DNA of 20,120 nucleotides from the IMG/VR virus record IMGVR_UViG_3300006925_000212, positions 1 to 20,120 of that record; one strand, written 5' to 3'. This DNA comes from a virus. This document shows, one piece after another, positions 2,989-14,876 of the stretch (the first letter of the stretch is position 1; the number at the start of each line of letters is the position of its first letter). The position numbers and the translations under genes are program-made. A model generated the notes under the pieces. The model saw only the letters and a list, made by a program, of their open reading frames with translations, had not been told where the DNA came from and did not search any database.

Positions 2989-5034
2989 TTAGAGGCCTGT
3001 CGGTTGCCTAATGCTGCCTCCAGCACCTCTATCCGATGTATCAAAGTCTTGTAGCTCTGATTCACTTGATTGACCACTTCCTCCAGTTGGCGCTGCGTTA
3101 CCATTTGGTTGTCCTTGTGTTTGGTTATATTTTAATTCAAGCTCACGATCTTTTAAAATACGATCAGCGAGTTGTAGTCTTCGTTCAAATTCTTTGTCGT
3201 CAGATACACCATCATCCAAATTGGTAGTAACAGCTTTAATCTTATCAAGCTCAAGCTCCACAGGAACTGCCTGAGCCTCAACCATGAGTTTAATAGCCCT
3301 AGCCTTAGACTCTTCGCCTTGGCCTTGCAGAGCGTTAATCTGAGACTGTTGGAACTCAATCTGTTTCTGATGAACTTCTTGGGCACGTTGCTGTTCTTGT
3401 TGATCTGGCTGTGAGGCTTGATCTATAGCAGATACCAAAGTTTCACGTTCTGATAAGTTCATGTTATCTACGATAGACTTGAGCAAGATTGGATAGTACT
3501 GCTGATCTTGTCCCATAGTCTGTAGTAATTGAACTAGCTGTGTTACTTCATATTCACGGGCCATAATACCTAGTGAGCTAGTAGCACAGAACTTGTAGTC
3601 TTTTACAGGGTACAACTCAGGCTCAAACTGCATATAACGATAAGCTGCTTTCTCTACAAAGGGAACTAAGAAATTCTCTTGGAAGTTTACTAGCGTACGC
3701 TTATGGCGTTTAATGATAGCACCTAGTGACATAGAGATGCCTGCTGCCGTTGCTTCACCATTAACAGCACCACCGATACCTGTAGAATCTACAGCACCTG
3801 TGGATTGTTGTACCATGTCCTGTAAAGCGCCAGCCTGTGCGAAGGTGATCTGATTTACATTACCGAAGTTAAATGGATTGATAATCTCTTTAGGGTCGCC
3901 ATTGGTCAACAACAGCTTACCTGCACGTACCTCTGGCTTAGTGCCTCTAGGGATACGTGTAGCGTCCATGGCTAGCATAGGGTGTACTGTCAATGCTAAT
4001 GCGTCAATACGGGCACGTAACTCAGCGTCTAGTGCTTTTTGACTGTTATAGCCTTTCTCTACGACACCACGACCATAGAAACGACTAGGTACTACGTCCC
4101 AAGGAAACGCTACTACAGGACGATCACGCATCATGTAGGGGTTTGCCTCAGCTTTCAGTAGAACGCCTTCATTAGCTATGATTACGACAGCCTCAACGTA
4201 CTGAGAGTCCTTTAAATCATCATCTAACTCTACATCAACTTCTTCTTCTAGTAAATAAGTAGGTACTAAGCCATAATACTTAGTTAAACGTACTTTATCG
4301 TCAGAATATACCGAAAGTTCAGCGTCTGGCTCAAGATTAAAGTCAGAAGCAGCCTTACCGATGTATTCGTCACGATAAACGCCTTGTTCTTGTAGTAATT
4401 CTACGCTATGACAACTAACAAACTCGTCAATAGCAACGCCCATAGCATCATCTACTGTAGTTGCGTTAGGGTCAACACGGAAATTACGTGGCATTACAGG
4501 CTTTAGGCGTACTAAGATGCGATCTTTTACATTTACACCTACTGCTTGTAGCTCTCCACCCAGTAAAGGCTCAGTAGCTGGAGACATTTCTTTGATTTCT
4601 TCCATTACTACTTCAGCAATACCAGTACCAAAGACAGCGGCATTGATTAGACATTCACCAGCATCCTTACGAACCCTAGCTTTTTTGAAATCTTCAAGCA
4701 ATTTATCACGTAAATACTTGATGTCGCCTTTTTCTTCGTCTGTGTAGTCGTCATGTATGTCAAAATACTTACCACGACCAAAGGTAGCTTCTTCAATCTC
4801 TGCTACGTTAGACTCTACGGCCTGTTGTGTAGCTGGTGCAATAATACGAGAGCGTTCACTGTTGCGTGTTTTGTCCTCACTAGACCAAATACCACGCCAG
4901 ATACGATAGTACTCATCGTTTTTCTCAGCGTAGTTTGCTTCGTAGTGATCGCTCCACTCTTCTACTTTGTTCATAACCCATGCTTGCAGGGTCTCTTGTA
5001 CCATTAAAGGTGATTCTTCGTTGTAGTCAGCCAT
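2989..5034 (-). CDS. Portal (head-tail connector) protein
   Basis: At 681 residues this has the size of podovirus portals. Portals form the dodecameric ring at one head vertex that binds the terminase and passes DNA. The N-terminal part (about residues 25-110: WSDHYEANYAEKNDEYYRIW, then RSRIIAPATQQAVESNVAEI) is typical of such portals. The middle contains RDRPVVAFPWDVVPSRFYGRG and a Gln-rich stretch, and the last 150 residues are rich in Gln/Glu/Lys and likely coiled coil. The tail end is a Gly/Gln/Asn-rich low-complexity stretch. It starts 3 bp downstream of the large terminase stop, behind AGGAT. No metal or ATP motif is expected. Gene order supports the call strongly; sequence recognition alone is moderate. 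Confidence 0.87.
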   Translation of the reverse strand: MADYNEESPLMVQETLQAWVMNKVEEWSDHYEANYAEKNDEYYRIWRGIWSSEDKTRNSERSRIIAPATQQAVESNVAEIEEATFGRGKYFDIHDDYTDEEKGDIKYLRDKLLEDFKKARVRKDAGECLINAAVFGTGIAEVVMEEIKEMSPATEPLLGGELQAVGVNVKDRILVRLKPVMPRNFRVDPNATTVDDAMGVAIDEFVSCHSVELLQEQGVYRDEYIGKAASDFNLEPDAELSVYSDDKVRLTKYYGLVPTYLLEEEVDVELDDDLKDSQYVEAVVIIANEGVLLKAEANPYMMRDRPVVAFPWDVVPSRFYGRGVVEKGYNSQKALDAELRARIDALALTVHPMLAMDATRIPRGTKPEVRAGKLLLTNGDPKEIINPFNFGNVNQITFAQAGALQDMVQQSTGAVDSTGIGGAVNGEATAAGISMSLGAIIKRHKRTLVNFQENFLVPFVEKAAYRYMQFEPELYPVKDYKFCATSSLGIMAREYEVTQLVQLLQTMGQDQQYYPILLKSIVDNMNLSERETLVSAIDQASQPDQQEQQRAQEVHQKQIEFQQSQINALQGQGEESKARAIKLMVEAQAVPVELELDKIKAVTTNLDDGVSDDKEFERRLQLADRILKDRELELKYNQTQGQPNGNAAPTGGSGQSSESELQDFDTSDRGAGGSIRQPTGL

Positions 5035-5037
5035 TTA

Positions 5038-6300
5038 TTAATATCCTGCAAAGTCGTCTAAAATTTCGTAATCGTCATATTCTTCAAAGTCCCCAGCATA
5101 CGCTATCTTGGCTAACTGATCTATATAAGCCAAAGCGTCTACTAAGTCGTCATGAGTTAGGGGGTCAGGGAATTGGAACAGTTCATCTAAGAATTTTGAG
5201 TTCCACTCTGCTTTTCTTATTTTGACTAAACCATGTTCAAAGCGACCTTGTAAGGCCCACATGATTCTGTCTGTTTTCTTTTGGTTTCCGTGTGTCAGCT
5301 CTTCGATGCGAAAGAAAAAAGCATTACGCTTCATCATGTCTTGTAGAGGAGACATTACTGCCTGTTTAGCAATACCTCTTTCTATCCCTACCGATATAGG
5401 CTTGTAGTCCCTAACGGCTTGGAATATCTTTTGGGCTGTCTGGTCTAAAGTCCATCTACCTGATATGATGTTTTCCACGTACCATCCGTTTTGTGTGACA
5501 TATACAACTGCGATAGCTGTGTTGTCCAAACGGCTGTTCTTTTTATTTTTCTTTCCTACTTCTTGGAAACCAGCTAAGTCAATGGCAATATAATAATCAC
5601 CTTCGCCCTTGTGCTGTTCTTCGTCGTAAACCTGTACCCAATCCTCCTTAAACATTTCAGAACCCATAGCTTCAAACGAGGCCATGAACTCTTGACGGAA
5701 AGCATATGAAGACATAGACTTCTTTGCTATATCTATTTCTTCTGGGTCTAGTAAAGGGTTGTCGTATGACGTAAAGTGCCAAGCCTTAAACGTAGGGTCG
5801 TCTTTTAACTCAGCATATTTGTATAGTTCATAAAAGTGGTTACGGCCTTTGGGTGTACCTATGAACAGACAGCTACCCTTTTGGTCAGCTAGTGCTGGAC
5901 GTAGGATTTCCTCAAACACCTGTGGCTTCATGTCAGCATATTCATCAAGAACAAGCATCTTTAATGACACACCACGCATAGTATCAGGCCTGTCCGCACC
6001 CTTTAGGTGAATAACAGAACCATTTATCAAAGTAACAGTTAAGTTGTTTATATGCGTACTTTTGATAATAGGATGGGCTAACTCTAACAAGGTTTGCCAC
6101 ATGATGTCCCTAGCCTGACCTTGGGTTGGTGCTACGTAAAACACACCGCCCTTCTTGCCGTCTAGCGCACTTAGTATCAGTAGCCATGCAGCAAGCCTAG
6201 ACTTACCACAGCGTCTTCCTGCTGCTACTACTTTAAATCGTTGTTCTGAGCCGTAGACTTCCTGCTGCCACGGAAGAAACTCTACCTGTAAATCACTCAT
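5038..6300 (-). CDS. terL: Terminase large subunit (DNA packaging ATPase/nuclease)
   Basis: This 420-residue protein shows both halves of a packaging motor. The ATPase part has Walker A AGRRCGKS (residues 27-34), Walker B LVLDE (116-120) and a GTPKG coupling motif near 148-152. The RNase H-like nuclease part has Asp241 in YIAIDLAG, Glu307 in VGIERG and the Asp pair in HDDLVDALAY (384-388). The length fits podovirus large terminases. It overlaps the small terminase gene by 8 bp upstream and is followed at once by the portal gene, its binding partner. The ATG follows GGAG. It would cut and pump concatemeric DNA into proheads. The packaging strategy (cos, pac or direct terminal repeats) cannot be read from it. 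Confidence 0.95.
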   Translation of the reverse strand: MSDLQVEFLPWQQEVYGSEQRFKVVAAGRRCGKSRLAAWLLILSALDGKKGGVFYVAPTQGQARDIMWQTLLELAHPIIKSTHINNLTVTLINGSVIHLKGADRPDTMRGVSLKMLVLDEYADMKPQVFEEILRPALADQKGSCLFIGTPKGRNHFYELYKYAELKDDPTFKAWHFTSYDNPLLDPEEIDIAKKSMSSYAFRQEFMASFEAMGSEMFKEDWVQVYDEEQHKGEGDYYIAIDLAGFQEVGKKNKKNSRLDNTAIAVVYVTQNGWYVENIISGRWTLDQTAQKIFQAVRDYKPISVGIERGIAKQAVMSPLQDMMKRNAFFFRIEELTHGNQKKTDRIMWALQGRFEHGLVKIRKAEWNSKFLDELFQFPDPLTHDDLVDALAYIDQLAKIAYAGDFEEYDDYEILDDFAGY

Positions 6301-6697
6301 CCACAGGACTCCATTCTCCGTCTAAAGCATCAGGCTCTTGTTTCACTTCGCCTACGCCAGTTATGTTAATCGTGATAGCTGACTTACCTCCAGACTTTAG
6401 AACCTCTTGTTCAAATACAGCAGTAGGTGCAATCCTGTCCATCACTAGTTTCCAAGCGGCTGCTTGGTTTTTATGTTCGTCATTCAAAGCAGCATCAAAG
6501 ATAGCATCAAGTACTTTACGTGACTTAGGTGATGCTAACATTCTAGCCTTGTATTCATTAATGACAGCAGCGTCACCTTTGGGTCTACCTCTGGCTACTC
6601 TGTTGCCTCTCTTGTTTGACTCAATGTCCTTCTTAGGTGGACGACCTCTTTTCTTTTTATTTTCTTCTTCTTCTTTTAGTTCTTTCTTTTTTGACAA
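6293..6697 (-). CDS. terS: Terminase small subunit with two AT-hook-like motifs
   Basis: This 134-residue protein precedes the large terminase and overlaps it by 8 bp, the usual place for the DNA-recognition subunit. The first 45 residues are highly charged and contain two RGRP cores (residues 17-20 and 36-39) flanked by Lys/Arg, which match the AT-hook that binds the minor groove of AT-rich DNA. The middle (residues 46-95) looks helical; the end is acidic. The start codon is TTG at 6697-6695: no ATG or GTG lies in frame nearby, and AAGGAG sits 9 bases upstream. That Shine-Dalgarno overlaps a CTTAAG element repeated in the leader. The function is inferred from position, size and a DNA-binding N-terminus; small terminases diverge too much for firm recognition by eye. 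Confidence 0.8.
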   Translation of the reverse strand: MSKKKELKEEEENKKKRGRPPKKDIESNKRGNRVARGRPKGDAAVINEYKARMLASPKSRKVLDAIFDAALNDEHKNQAAAWKLVMDRIAPTAVFEQEVLKSGGKSAITINITGVGEVKQEPDALDGEWSPVDE

Positions 6698-6709
6698 AAC
6701 AAAACACTC

Positions 6710-6803
6710 CTTAAGTTATCCCTAAGAATCTTAAGAACCTTTAATTTATTCTTTATTGATAATACTTAATGAATAAAACTAAAAGACACTTAAGAATCTT
6801 AAG
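6710..6803 (-). promoter_or_regulatory. CTTAAG palindromes in the late leader (candidate operator or RNA hairpins)
   Basis: CTTAAG occurs at 6710-6715, 6730-6735, 6789-6794 and 6798-6803, with a further copy upstream of the promoter at 6935-6940. The block CTTAAG-AAT-CTTAAG (6789-6803) is a perfect dyad and recurs with one change at 6721-6735. All but the copy at 6935 lie between the late promoter and the small terminase start. The copy at 6710-6715 overlaps the Shine-Dalgarno of that gene. They could bind a dimeric repressor or fold in the RNA and hide the ribosome site. The repeats are seen; the role is inferred. Confidence 0.55.
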
Positions 6804-6844
6804 TAGGGCCGAGGGTGGCTAATCGCTTACTTATTAATAACTAT

Positions 6845-6873
6845 ATTATACCATATTTTTAAACAAAAGTCAA
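6845..6873 (-). promoter_or_regulatory. Sigma-70-type promoter for the packaging/head arm
   Basis: On the minus strand TTGACT (6873-6868) and TATAAT (6850-6845) are separated by 17 bp, with TGG before the -10 as in the promoters at 2927 and 10995. Transcription would start near 6838 and run through a leader of about 140 bases to the small terminase gene. Confidence 0.8.
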
Positions 6874-6933: not shown

Positions 6934-7115
6934 ACTTAAGTTCTTTTGTTGACTTTTTGTTTTCTTTTGTTTATCAGAGACTTGCACAAGTTTACACAAG
7001 TATAACTAAAGGTTCTAATACATAGATTTAATGTTTCTAAAAACTACCTTTTTTGTGCCTGAGAGGCTACCCGTAGTAATCCCAGAAAAACTTCCTCCCC
7101 CCCGTACCCCTATTT

Positions 7116-7352
7116 TTATCCCCAGGTTATCCACAGGTTGTCCACAAGTTATCCACAGGTTATCAACAGGTTATCCACAGGCTGCCGAGTTATCCACAAG
7201 TTATCCACAGAACACATGAGTTATCCACAGGTTGAAGTGTGGGAATGCTTGTGGCAGCCTATAGTTATCCACAAGCAACACAAGTTATCCACAATTATGT
7301 ATACACAGGTTATCCACAGGTAAACAGCAATGTATACACAGACTTATCCACA
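7116..7352 (+). other. Cluster of 13 DnaA boxes: probable replication origin
   Basis: The perfect box TTATCCACA begins at 7127, 7149, 7171, 7190, 7201, 7221, 7265, 7285, 7310 and 7344. One-base variants begin at 7116 (TTATCCCCA), 7138 (TTGTCCACA) and 7160 (TTATCAACA). All thirteen point the same way. The first six start exactly 11 bp apart, as does the 7190/7201 pair, so those boxes lie on nearly the same face of the helix. TTATCCACA is the high-affinity binding site of the bacterial initiator DnaA, so this is most simply an origin or initiation-control site that uses the host DnaA. The region carries no credible gene and lies between the divergent arms. AT-rich DNA that could melt follows to the right (about 7405-7630). 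The boxes are seen directly; origin function is inferred. Confidence 0.8.
7179..7260. repeat. Inverted repeat AGGCTGCC / GGCAGCCT within the DnaA-box cluster
   Basis: AGGCTGCC (7179-7186) and its exact complement GGCAGCCT (7253-7260) enclose the boxes at 7190, 7201 and 7221. The arms are 66 bp apart, so they could frame a sub-region or form a cruciform. Confidence 0.45.
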
Positions 7353-7383: not shown

Positions 7384-7669
7384 GAGGTTTTCAGCTTACC
7401 CTGTACATTGGTATTAAAAAATAGTGAACTCGATTTTAGCTATATTGGCATGAGTTTTGCATAGTAAATAATTATTGACAACAACAATAATACTATGGTA
7501 TTCGCACGTACGTATATATAATAGCATGGGTAAAATAACTATTAGTTATATCTATATGCTAAAATAGTATTTGCATTATTAATTCATTTGTATATAATGG
7601 AACACAAGCCAAAGCAAAGAAGCCTAGGCAAACATTAATGAGAATGATTATCAACAAAGGAATAAAGCA
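7384..7669 (+). promoter_or_regulatory. AT-rich gene-free stretch with two candidate early promoters
   Basis: No credible gene lies here. Candidate 1 is TTGACA (7475-7480), followed after 18 bp by TATTCG preceded by TGG: a perfect -35 but a poor -10. Candidate 2 is TTGCAT (7571-7576), 16 bp, then a perfect TATAAT (7593-7598), about 70 bp ahead of the first early gene. The high A+T content also suits a DNA unwinding element beside the DnaA boxes. Either promoter would feed the plus-strand arm; neither is as good as those at 2927, 6845 and 10995. Confidence 0.4.
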
Positions 7670-11138: not shown

Positions 11139-11507
11139 ATGATCGCAGAAGGAACAGTAGCATTTGAATCACTAAAAGAGCATGATATCTTTAATGGTCA
11201 ATCCACGGGTAAGTTTACCTTAACTTTAACACTAGATGAAAAGTCAGCGACAAACCTAGAGTCTGAAGGTGTCAAAATCAAAGACTACGAAGGCAAGCCA
11301 CAGCGTAAGTTTTCAACACAGTACACAGTGCCAGTGTTTGACTTAGATGGTAAACCATTCATAGGTCAGGTTACACGGGGTTCTAAGGTACGTATTCAGT
11401 GGAAGAAAGGTAACCCACATCCTGTTCACGGCACACCGCCCTACCTAGAAAAGGTACGTGTATTGGAACTAGCGGAAGCACAGGGAAGCATTGACGAGGA
11501 TTTCTAA
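11139..11507 (+). CDS. Single-stranded DNA-binding protein (T7 gp2.5-like role)
   Basis: This 122-residue protein has the beta-rich pattern of an OB fold (TGKFTLTLTLDE, then FSTQYTVPVFDLDG, then GSKVRIQWKKG). It ends in an acidic stretch closing with Phe (SIDEDF). Acidic C-termini ending in Phe are a hallmark of phage and bacterial SSBs, where they contact polymerase and helicase. The primase-helicase encoded next also ends in an acidic stretch with DF. It is the first gene behind the strongest promoter and precedes the primase-helicase by 1 bp. It would coat single strands during replication. Sequence similarity alone is weak by eye; tail and position carry the call. Confidence 0.75.
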   Translation: MIAEGTVAFESLKEHDIFNGQSTGKFTLTLTLDEKSATNLESEGVKIKDYEGKPQRKFSTQYTVPVFDLDGKPFIGQVTRGSKVRIQWKKGNPHPVHGTPPYLEKVRVLELAEAQGSIDEDF

Positions 11508-11508
11508 T

Positions 11509-13152
11509 ATGAGCAGTTTTGTCAAACATGAAGCGTGTCCTAGTTGTGGCAGTGCTAACAACTTAGCTAGATACTCAGATGGGCACGCTACCTGTTTTGG
11601 TGTAGATTGCAATTATTATGAACACGCAGACGGAGGGGCTACCAAGGCCTCTCCCGAAGCGTCAACAAACCCTAAACGGAGGTTTGAAATGTCGGGTGTA
11701 TTTGCCGCAATATCAGATCGCAGAATATCACAAGGAGTGTGTGAAAAGTTTGGAGTGACAGTAGAATACGGGACGGATGGTAACATAACTAAACACCACT
11801 ATCCATACTATGATGTCAGCACTAAACAACCTGTAGGAACAAAGGTACGTAGGGTAGAGAATAAGGAGTTTTACGCTACAGGTACTTATGAGAATACTGG
11901 CCTATTCGGTCAGCAGGCCTTCAAGGAAGGAGGAAAGTATGTAACAGTATGTGAAGGCGAAGCGGACGCATTGGCCATATCTGAAATGTTTGATGGTAAG
12001 TGGCCTGTCGTTTCTATCAAGTCAGGAGCAGGGTCAGCAGTTAAGGATATAAAGTCCTCGCTGGAATGGCTAGAAACATTCGAAAACGTAGTTATTTGCT
12101 TTGACAATGACGAACAAGGACAGAAGGCAGCAAGCAAGGTATTACAGTTATTCTCACCTAACAAGGCTAAGAATTGCACGTTGCCTTTGAAAGATGCTGG
12201 CGAAATGCTCAAAGCTAATCGCATACGTGAGTTTACAAGTGAATGGTGGAATGCCAAGACCTACCGCCCCGATGGGATTGTAGGCGGCCAAGACACATGG
12301 GAATTACTCAACGCCACTAAAGACGTTAAGAGTACACCCTACCCTTGGTCTGGTCTTAACAGCGTTACATACGGGTTTAGACCCAAGGAATTAGTGACCA
12401 TAACCAGTGGCTCAGGCATGGGTAAGTCACAGATAATCAGGGAGCTTGAACATTATCTGTTAGGCGCTACTGACGATAACATAGGAATCTTGGCTCTTGA
12501 AGAATCAATAGAGCGAACTGTTACAGGTGTAATGTCGATAGAAGCTAACCAGCCTCTACACTTACCGACCACATCAGTTAGCGACGAATACCGCAGGGAA
12601 GTCTGGGAAAAGACAATGGGCACAGGGCGTTTCTATATGTTCGACCATTGGGGTTCTATGGGTGAAGATACGCTTCTTAATAAGATACGTTATCTGGCTA
12701 AAGGCCTCGACTGTAAGTGGATTATATTAGATCACTTATCCATTGTTGTATCTGACCAAGCGGAAGGCGACGAGCGAAAAGCCATTGATGCTATAATGAC
12801 CAAGTTGCGGCAGTTAGTACAAGAGACAGGCGTAGGCCTATTCCTTGTGTCTCACTTGAAGCGACCACCAAGCAAAGGTCACGAAGAAGGAGCACAGGTG
12901 TCGTTGTCTGAGCTACGAGGTTCAGCAGCTATCGCACAGTTATCTGATATGGTTATTGGCCTAGAAAGGAATCAGCAACACAAAGACCCAGTTATACGCA
13001 ATACGACTACAGTACGTGTGCTTAAGAATCGCTTTGCTGGCTTAACAGGAGCTTGTTGTTGGCTTGGATACGATAGTGACACAGGACGCATGACAGAAGT
13101 TACAGAGCCTGAGGCTACAGAAGATAACGCATACGCAGGGGGAGACTTTTAG
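11509..13152 (+). CDS. T7 gp4-type primase-helicase
   Basis: I start it at the ATG at 11509, 8 bases after GAGGA, giving 547 residues; a TTG at 11491 in the same frame is less likely. Domains in order: primase zinc finger (Cys10, 13, 29, 34), TOPRIM primase core with CEGEAD (148-153) and FDNDE (198-202), and a DnaB/RecA-type helicase with Walker A GSGMGKS (301-307), EES (331-333) and Walker B IILDH (405-409). LSELRGSAAIAQLSD (466-480) matches a conserved T7 stretch. It ends GDF in an acidic tail, as T7 gp4 does, where the tail docks on polymerase. It unwinds DNA and makes lagging-strand primers. It overlaps the polymerase gene by one base. Confidence 0.96.
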   Translation: MSSFVKHEACPSCGSANNLARYSDGHATCFGVDCNYYEHADGGATKASPEASTNPKRRFEMSGVFAAISDRRISQGVCEKFGVTVEYGTDGNITKHHYPYYDVSTKQPVGTKVRRVENKEFYATGTYENTGLFGQQAFKEGGKYVTVCEGEADALAISEMFDGKWPVVSIKSGAGSAVKDIKSSLEWLETFENVVICFDNDEQGQKAASKVLQLFSPNKAKNCTLPLKDAGEMLKANRIREFTSEWWNAKTYRPDGIVGGQDTWELLNATKDVKSTPYPWSGLNSVTYGFRPKELVTITSGSGMGKSQIIRELEHYLLGATDDNIGILALEESIERTVTGVMSIEANQPLHLPTTSVSDEYRREVWEKTMGTGRFYMFDHWGSMGEDTLLNKIRYLAKGLDCKWIILDHLSIVVSDQAEGDERKAIDAIMTKLRQLVQETGVGLFLVSHLKRPPSKGHEEGAQVSLSELRGSAAIAQLSDMVIGLERNQQHKDPVIRNTTTVRVLKNRFAGLTGACCWLGYDSDTGRMTEVTEPEATEDNAYAGGDF

Positions 13153-14876
13153 TGACAAAGAAGTTAGTATTTGATATAGAGACAGACGGTCTTAAGCCGA
13201 CCACAATCTGGTGTATAGTAGCTAAAGAGGTAGACAATAATGAGTTATACGTATTTGATTATAATAATCTTAGCGATTGGAATAGTTTTGTACGAGGATA
13301 TAACGAAGTAATAGGTCACAACCTAATTGGCTATGATGTGCCAGCGTGTGAAAAGCTTCTAGGAACTGACTTCTCAGGTATCAAGATTACTGACACTTTG
13401 GTTATGTCTCGACTAGCCGACCCACAGCGAGGTGGTCACGACTTAAACAGTTATGGATTGGAGTTAAACAATGAAAAAGGCGATCACTCGGATTGGTCTT
13501 GCTATAGCTTGGAAATGCTTGAGTATTGCAAGCAGGATGTTAGGTTATCTGAACAAGTTTACAAACGACTCGTTCAGTCCCTTAGTGGCTTTGGAAGCGA
13601 ATCTATTAATCTTGAGCATCAGGTACAGGATATTATATGCAAGCAAATAGAAAACGGATGGCTGTTAAACGAAGAAAAGTGTTACGACTTAATCGGGGAA
13701 CTAAAAGAAGCCTCGTTTGTAGCGGAGGAAAAAGTACATGAAGTGTTCAAGCCTCTACCTACATTCATTAAGGAAATATCCCCAAAGCGTAAGAAAGATG
13801 GCACGTTCAGTGTCGTTGGTCTTAAGTTCCTCGGAGATCGTTGGACAGAGGTTGCAGGACAGTTCAGCCGTGTTGATTGGCCTGTATTTAATCTAGGCTC
13901 AAGACAACAGATAGCACGTTACCTACAGCACTTTGGATGGAAACCGAAGAAGTACACTGACAAGGGTCACGTTATCGTTTCTGAAGAAGTTTTGATGGAA
14001 GTACAGGGAATCCCTGAGGCAAAGCTAATTGCTGACTATTTGCTGCTACAGAAGCGCCTAGCACAAGTTAAGGGCTGGGTTGATAAAGTAGACACTGACA
14101 AACGTGTTCACGGCTTTGTGAACTCAAATGGAGCTGTCACAGGACGTATGACGCACAGTAGCCCTAATGTTGCAAACGTGCCAGCATCCTATAGCCCATA
14201 CGGCAAAGAGTGTAGGGAATGTTGGACTGTTCCTCAAGGGTACAAGTTAGTCGGTTGTGATGCTTCTGGTTTGGAATTGAGAATGCTTGCTCATTATATG
14301 AATGACGAGGCGTATACTCAAGAGATTCTAAATGGTGATATTCACACAGCTAACCAGATTGCTGCTGGTTTACCTGAAAGATCACAAGCCAAGACTTTCA
14401 TATACGGATTCCTGTACGGGGCTGGTGACGCAAAGATTGGTGAGATAGTAAATGGTAGTGCTAGAGAAGGTAAGCGACTCAAGAATAAGTTCTTAGACGC
14501 TACACCAGCACTCAAGAAACTACGAGAAGACGTTGTTTCTGCCTCTGGTAGAGGTTTCTTGGTTGGCCTTGATAATCGTAAGCTCTTTGTTCGGTCTCCC
14601 CATAGCGCATTAAATACGTTATTGCAAGCAGCCGGAGCAATAGTTATGAAAAAAGCCTTGTGTATCCTCTCAGAGTATGCTATAATATGGGGGATAGACT
14701 TCAAGTTTGTAGGTAACATTCACGATGAATTTCAAACGGAGGTCAAAGAACATCAAGCAGAGCAGTTCGGTAAGTTAGCCGTTGCCTCTATTGTGGCAGC
14801 AGGGATTGAATTAGGACTTAGGTGTCCACTAAACGGAGATTATGCCATAGGTAACACATGGGCAGAAACTCACTAG
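13152..14876 (+). CDS. Family A DNA polymerase (T7 gp5-type)
   Basis: It uses a GTG start inside TAGTG, one base shared with the previous stop. The 574-residue enzyme has a 3'-5' exonuclease (Asp8 and Glu10 in FDIETDG, Asp62 in GYDVP, Asp129 in YCKQD). The polymerase has motif A with Asp370 (GCDASGLE), motif B Arg410-Lys414-Tyr418 ending in YG, and motif C His524-Asp525-Glu526. It matches T7 gp5 over long stretches (NGDIHT.NQIAA, KTFIYGFLYGAGD). It is about 130 residues shorter than T7 gp5. Part of the loss lies where T7 binds thioredoxin: about 50 residues (199-248) against about 76, though a basic PKRKKDG loop remains. It replicates the phage genome with the flanking SSB and helicase. Confidence 0.96.
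   Translation: MTKKLVFDIETDGLKPTTIWCIVAKEVDNNELYVFDYNNLSDWNSFVRGYNEVIGHNLIGYDVPACEKLLGTDFSGIKITDTLVMSRLADPQRGGHDLNSYGLELNNEKGDHSDWSCYSLEMLEYCKQDVRLSEQVYKRLVQSLSGFGSESINLEHQVQDIICKQIENGWLLNEEKCYDLIGELKEASFVAEEKVHEVFKPLPTFIKEISPKRKKDGTFSVVGLKFLGDRWTEVAGQFSRVDWPVFNLGSRQQIARYLQHFGWKPKKYTDKGHVIVSEEVLMEVQGIPEAKLIADYLLLQKRLAQVKGWVDKVDTDKRVHGFVNSNGAVTGRMTHSSPNVANVPASYSPYGKECRECWTVPQGYKLVGCDASGLELRMLAHYMNDEAYTQEILNGDIHTANQIAAGLPERSQAKTFIYGFLYGAGDAKIGEIVNGSAREGKRLKNKFLDATPALKKLREDVVSASGRGFLVGLDNRKLFVRSPHSALNTLLQAAGAIVMKKALCILSEYAIIWGIDFKFVGNIHDEFQTEVKEHQAEQFGKLAVASIVAAGIELGLRCPLNGDYAIGNTWAETH

Follow-up and report, generated by a model that had tools for sequence, protein, structure and literature searches.

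Which role could a dense, same-direction array of DnaA boxes play between the packaging and early genes of a phage? The question is raised by a 20,120-base virus contig of a marine phage (IMG/VR record IMGVR_UViG_3300006925_000212), which we analysed over its entire length and refer to as the window. An initial annotation of this DNA had offered two models for the array: a replication origin driven by host DnaA, or a decoy that titrates DnaA and blocks host initiation. We weighed both against a docking function at the genome end and against transcription control.

A phased array of DnaA boxes

A motif scan located 13 DnaA boxes within 7116-7352, all on the + strand. Ten are perfect copies of TTATCCACA (7127, 7149, 7171, 7190, 7201, 7221, 7265, 7285, 7310 and 7344) and three carry one mismatch (TTATCCCCA at 7116, TTGTCCACA at 7138 and TTATCAACA at 7160). 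Every place and strand agrees with the initial annotation, as do the exact 11-bp steps between the first six box starts; this run spans 7116-7179 and alternates three perfect with three imperfect boxes. Because two weaker + strand boxes of sequence GTATACACA stand in step with perfect ones (7299..7307, 11 bp ahead of the box at 7310, and 7332..7340, 12 bp ahead of the box at 7344), we regard the array as comprising about 15 units. Boxes with at most one mismatch number 21 over both strands of the 20-kb window, compared to 5.3 +/- 2.3 in dinucleotide shuffles, and none of 100 shuffles reaches this count. Chance or base composition as the source of the array is ruled out by these shuffles, together with the spacing peaks in viral contigs and the box enrichment 3' of a C-run that are described below.

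The array had also been thought to exceed ordinary bacterial origins in density and regularity. Its density is indeed high, but its geometry is not unique: three perfect boxes at 11-bp steps occur in at least 120 IMG/VR stretches, where clusters reach 13 boxes, and in at least 118 bacterial genome stretches. Bacterial stretches with this geometry (L557-L636) come from many phyla, repeatedly from Poribacteria, Chryseobacterium and TM6/Babeliales, and some hold two opposed arrays that are perhaps oriC. No similar array was found in the E. coli genomes searched, and a plasmid search returned few.

In vivo, E. coli DnaA favours boxes that lie 2 or 3 bp apart, equivalent to 11- or 12-bp steps (PMC11317965). 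We profiled box spacing in 117 viral contigs selected by a single criterion, a same-strand box pair within 39 bp. The steps between box pairs peak at 11-13, 20-22 and 32-34 bp, unlike those of the reversed motif, which served as a control and shows the 3-bp periodicity of coding DNA. In-phase variant boxes, the commonest of which include TTATACACA, TTTTCCACA and TTATGCACA, are altered at positions 1, 3 and 5 in 63 of 83 cases, whereas control words elsewhere are altered everywhere (chi-square p 2e-12). The array thereby shares with DnaA-binding arrays an excess of consensus boxes over chance, gaps of 2-3 bp with helical phasing (in the window's steps and in the viral sample) and, for the pooled in-phase units, variants that follow DnaA degeneracy; the window's own three variants differ at positions 7, 3 and 6 and match this degeneracy only in part. 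Since same-strand pair spacing peaks and the variants mutate where DnaA tolerates change, the boxes are very likely DnaA sites. The expectation that host DnaA would load along one face of the helix gains support from the spacing reported for E. coli, from the phased phage pairs and from the DnaA-tolerant variant positions, and DnaA would presumably assemble cooperatively along the array. Tandem-duplicated iterons for a phage protein unrelated to DnaA are disfavoured because the exact box recurs across unrelated phages and the variants fit DnaA degeneracy.

Genes and signals around the array

To the left of the array, the - strand encodes a likely small terminase subunit (TerS, 6293..6697; without a Pfam match, assigned by its place before TerL and its conservation), the large terminase subunit (TerL, 5038..6300, a Terminase_6N domain match), an SU10-type portal, a scaffold-like protein and a Phage_capsid_2 capsid protein. 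The + strand on the right carries early genes, a lysozyme, a T7 gp4-type primase-helicase (11491..13152) and a family A DNA polymerase (13152..14876); homologues of these genes occur in relatives. Bacterial contamination is ruled out, because phage terminase and early genes flank the array and it recurs in the same setting in relatives.

The description of this phage as T7-like holds for part of its gene set. The window has the T7-type primase-helicase and family A polymerase of Autographiviridae, but a single-subunit, T7-type RNA polymerase is absent from the 16 TerL relatives searched (contigs of up to 58 kb, some incomplete; the window itself is a fragment), and both positive controls, Kp7 and phiEap-1, were matched. 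The term therefore fits the replication proteins and not the transcription strategy. The accompanying premise that T7-like phages do without DnaA sites is wrong for some of them, as four Autographiviridae have such an array inside their terminal repeat (see below).

The array lies between divergent promoter-like sites. A sigma70-like site towards terS (TTGACT-17-TATAAT, 11/12) is located at 6845..6873 on the - strand, and another towards the early genes (TTTGCA-17-TATAAT) at 7570..7598 on the + strand; sigma70-like sites are no commoner in the window than in shuffles. A lone sigma54 -24/-12 promoter-like site, TGGCATGAGTTTTGCA, points towards the early genes at 7446..7461 (+). Among the 100-bp stretches of the window, the one that ranks second in instability follows 3' of the boxes (7508..7607, +); it is possibly an unwinding element, or simply promoter DNA. 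Upstream of terS, at 6715-6805, CTTAAG / AATCTTAAG motifs are repeated.

Exchangeable cassettes in related phages

The array is positioned upstream of terS and immediately 3' of a conserved C-run (CTTCCTCCCCCCCGTACCCC, 7091..7110, +). Most TerL relatives (~75% identity) share this landmark immediately 5' of whichever cassette follows, DnaA array or other; in them it typically reads ACCCCTCCCCCGG and is commonly found ~1.3 kb upstream of terL. Judged by eye, the sequence GTGTGGG...GCAGCCTATAG at 7237..7264 (+) appears to resemble a motif that bounds the right side of the cassette in relatives.

We took a census of 56 TerL-relative loci, the window included, that were not picked for boxes. A DnaA array is present at 13 loci, an array of sigma54 -24/-12 sites at 18, both at 3 and neither at 22. 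Perfect DnaA boxes number 181 in the regions 3' of the C-run and 6 in the far larger remainder; strict sigma54 sites (TGGCAYR-N4-TTGCW) number 114 in 36 kb 3' of the C-run and 3 in the remaining 207 kb. When TTGGCA alone is used as the seed, TTGC emerges at the right, fixed distance in 90 distinct sites whose spacer varies, and this recovery together with the enrichment of the strict motif makes the sigma54 sites in the relatives' arrays convincing. Both kinds of site are strongly biased in orientation, with 159 of 181 DnaA boxes and 95 of 114 sigma54 sites pointing in one direction. Motifs for CRP, FNR, PhoB, ArgR, PurR, IHF and others showed no comparable family-wide enrichment, and blastn retrieved no known phage isolate with a sigma54 array.

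The loci L017, L021, L025, L029-L034, L038, L041, L064 and L086 illustrate the replacement of the DnaA array by a sigma54 array 3' of the C-run and upstream of terL, each with 2-9 strict -24/-12 promoter-like sites that mostly point the same way. Two single cases are only suggestive of further targets: in L063 the C-run is followed by seven overlapping TTAA-N7-TTAA sites at 11-bp steps, the pattern expected of CtrA binding, and in L068 four Fur-box-like sites (GATAACGATTCTCAATAGC and similar) occupy this place. Tandem repeats are found 3' of the C-run in L011, L013 and L169, namely CACCATTGGG at 10-bp steps and ACACGAGATGC-type repeats at 11-bp steps; the latter adjoin three DnaA boxes.

Cassette type changes readily between close relatives. 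When cassette labels are placed on the TerL tree, at least 15 changes are needed, compared to a possible minimum of 3. TerL is 99.8% identical between L051 (DnaA and sigma54 sites) and L070 (neither), and L061 and L066 differ in their cassettes at 99.0% TerL identity. In both pairs, the DNA is 91-95% identical from terL up to 4 bp or less from the first DnaA box, where the similarity ends. The same kind of replication genes occurs under DnaA cassettes (G005, G011, L494) and under sigma54 cassettes (G045, G047). Conservation in related phages, the comparison that the initial annotation had put forward, thus extends to DnaA arrays in part of the relatives, while the others hold sigma54 arrays, other repeats or nothing. 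Because sites for another host protein often occupy this spot in close relatives, the array resembles a swappable trap or landing site for proteins of the host and not a dedicated origin. Judging from these comparisons, our working interpretation, still tentative, is that of a host-DnaA binding array within an exchangeable cassette at the late/early junction, the general job of which may be to hold a scarce host regulator.

Arrays and genome ends

In four Autographiviridae phages the array is located inside the direct terminal repeat as deposited: Enterobacter phage phiEap-1 (L208/L212; 195-bp repeat), Shigella phage A7 (L450/L451; 177 bp), Klebsiella phage Kp7 (L452; 238 bp) and Klebsiella phage ZK1 (L746/L747; 292 bp). 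Like the array in the window, theirs lie between late and early genes, with many steps of ~11 or 21 bp; unlike those in the window's family, they accompany a T7-type RNA polymerase, as confirmed for phiEap-1 and Kp7. The first 1 kb of T7 and of SP6 held no DnaA boxes. Within the window's own family, terminal-repeat placement comes from one contig, G001, a 36-kb complete member (TerL 55%) whose 221-bp terminal repeat holds seven boxes; the window is a fragment without ends, and its array probably belongs to the terminal-repeat (packaging-end) region. In Arthrobacter phage Seahorse, the record ends on the right ~50 bp away from the boxes, and terS is at the left end.

Among 33 long array-bearing viral contigs, 19 match Terminase_6N, and in ~12 of these 19 the array lies 0.5-3.4 kb upstream. 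Nine of the 33 have the array within 500 bp of a contig end, where 1.1 would be expected. We dropped contig ends as proof of physical termini, as assembly breaks explain this enrichment too. DnaA-box clusters were also observed in Microviridae L744 (ssDNA phage; 3259-3300), a genome without a terminus, and in a large intergenic gap of Lactococcus phage AM9 (L455; 14.8-kb record). Since arrays also occur without any terminus, as in Microviridae, more than one use of such arrays is possible.

Discussion

Titration of DnaA is the function that we favour, with reserve, over an origin, docking at the genome end and promoter control. An E. coli cell contains about a thousand DnaA molecules. One incoming genome with ~15 sites would occupy only a few percent of the cell's DnaA, and ~100 replicated genomes would present ~1500 sites, sufficient to starve oriC. 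We give titration a slight lead because both DnaA and sigma54 are master factors in short supply and ~15 sites in ~100 copies would match the DnaA pool; the scarcity of these two commonest targets suits titration better than a mere coating of the DNA. In a more general form, possible though somewhat short of probable, the element would be a modular cassette near the genome terminus, swapped among close relatives, in which tandem high-affinity sites titrate or commandeer one chosen master regulator of the host. Its targets would be DnaA or sigma54, and perhaps CtrA or Fur in single relatives, so that the cassette would hold DnaA here and RpoN in others. Such cassettes, carried in the window's phage family and convergently in other phages, could tentatively be grouped as a DNA-sponge class of host-takeover element.

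Several observations speak against a sponge. The dominance of one orientation among both DnaA and sigma54 sites is needless for a pure sponge, 22 of the 56 loci carry neither array, and a sponge is effective only late, once many copies have been made. In addition, sigma54 sites may be working promoters, because 13 of the 16 DnaA-array members keep one or more. As for precedents, datA and chromosomal titration regions are likewise DnaA-box clusters able to titrate DnaA (PMC5835720, PMC12371093), and binding to the phage array is predicted. datA comprises two consensus and four one-misfit boxes and acts partly via DnaA-ATP hydrolysis; the phage array differs in being denser, tandem and near packaging genes.

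The host-DnaA-driven origin proposed initially is weakened because close relatives that share the replication genes have sigma54-site arrays in place of the DnaA boxes, and we consider it unlikely, though alive. DnaA would fill the same-direction array and open the AT-rich stretch on its 3' side; host DnaB or the phage primase-helicase would load there. The stretch at 7508-7607, second in the instability ranking of the window, lies on the side of the boxes that such a model calls for, as the unwinding element of E. coli is located on the 3' side relative to box R1. However, it is ~155 bp from the last box and in promoter DNA. The minimum of the cumulative GC skew falls at 7351 and, in G001, G011 and G029, likewise at the array, but we set the skew aside as proof of an origin because this minimum coincides with gene divergence and the boxes are C-rich. 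An origin would also suit a family in which T7-type RNA polymerase was not found among the 16 TerL relatives searched, yet arrays occur in terminal repeats of Autographiviridae that bear this polymerase. A further objection is that the array is not retained wherever the replication module is: relatives with the same primase-helicase and polymerase carry sigma54 arrays or nothing in its place. Since the same replication genes sit under different cassettes, a conserved DnaA-origin function is hard to reconcile with the family.

What keeps an origin role alive, at modest likelihood, is the orientation bias, the unstable 3' DNA and a Rep-less Buchnera plasmid with phased boxes. This plasmid, pTrp (L717), has five same-direction boxes at exact 21-bp steps (14-106) and no ORF of at least 100 aa besides trpE and trpG; it offers a parallel in which boxes are all that can be seen of an origin, albeit on a small circular replicon with 21-bp steps and no visible Rep gene, unlike the window. 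In E. coli oriC, oriented DnaA-box arrays lie beside the unwinding element (review PMC4285127), and the 2-3 bp gaps of the phage array are those that DnaA prefers there too (PMC11317965). oriC has low-affinity array sites; the phage boxes are mostly perfect, and their cassette is swapped in relatives.

It is rather unlikely that the array serves to dock host proteins near the genome end, where they would hold or ratchet the entering DNA, protect the end, pause injection or form a roadblock in concatemer cutting and packaging. Placement inside the direct terminal repeats of five phages (phiEap-1, A7, Kp7, ZK1 and G001), near the record end in Seahorse and upstream of terminase in many viral contigs fits docking, as does the interchangeable identity of the bound protein. 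The excess of arrays near contig ends points the same way, but these ends may have arisen where assembly broke off at repeats or at a hypervariable site. In T5, the terminal repeat that is first to enter contains repeats and DnaA boxes, the latter named among the features of the injection stop signal (PMC13250531). Unlike the window, however, T5 lacks a dense array in this region, in which our own scan found one perfect and three one-mismatch boxes. Very abundant proteins would do better at docking than DnaA or sigma54, and circular Microviridae carry arrays too. Transcription control, in which DnaA or sigma54 polymerase on the array would regulate the divergent early and late promoters, is improbable: the array does sit between promoter-like sites, with an orientation bias and a sigma54 site after it, but its 13-15 near-consensus sites are far above ordinary operators and the promoter-like sites are no commoner than in shuffles.

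Origins and titration loci are already known to contain clusters of DnaA boxes, which had been noticed in T5 as well. In the open-licence papers searched, we found neither an exchangeable phased DnaA/sigma54 cassette at a phage late/early junction nor this type of array in the terminal repeats of unrelated phages, and no relevant account of DnaA decoys or sigma54 promoters in phages. Titration of a scarce host regulator by an exchangeable cassette remains our preferred, tentative interpretation, and the finding suggests that phages capture host regulators through non-coding DNA arrays and not through proteins alone.
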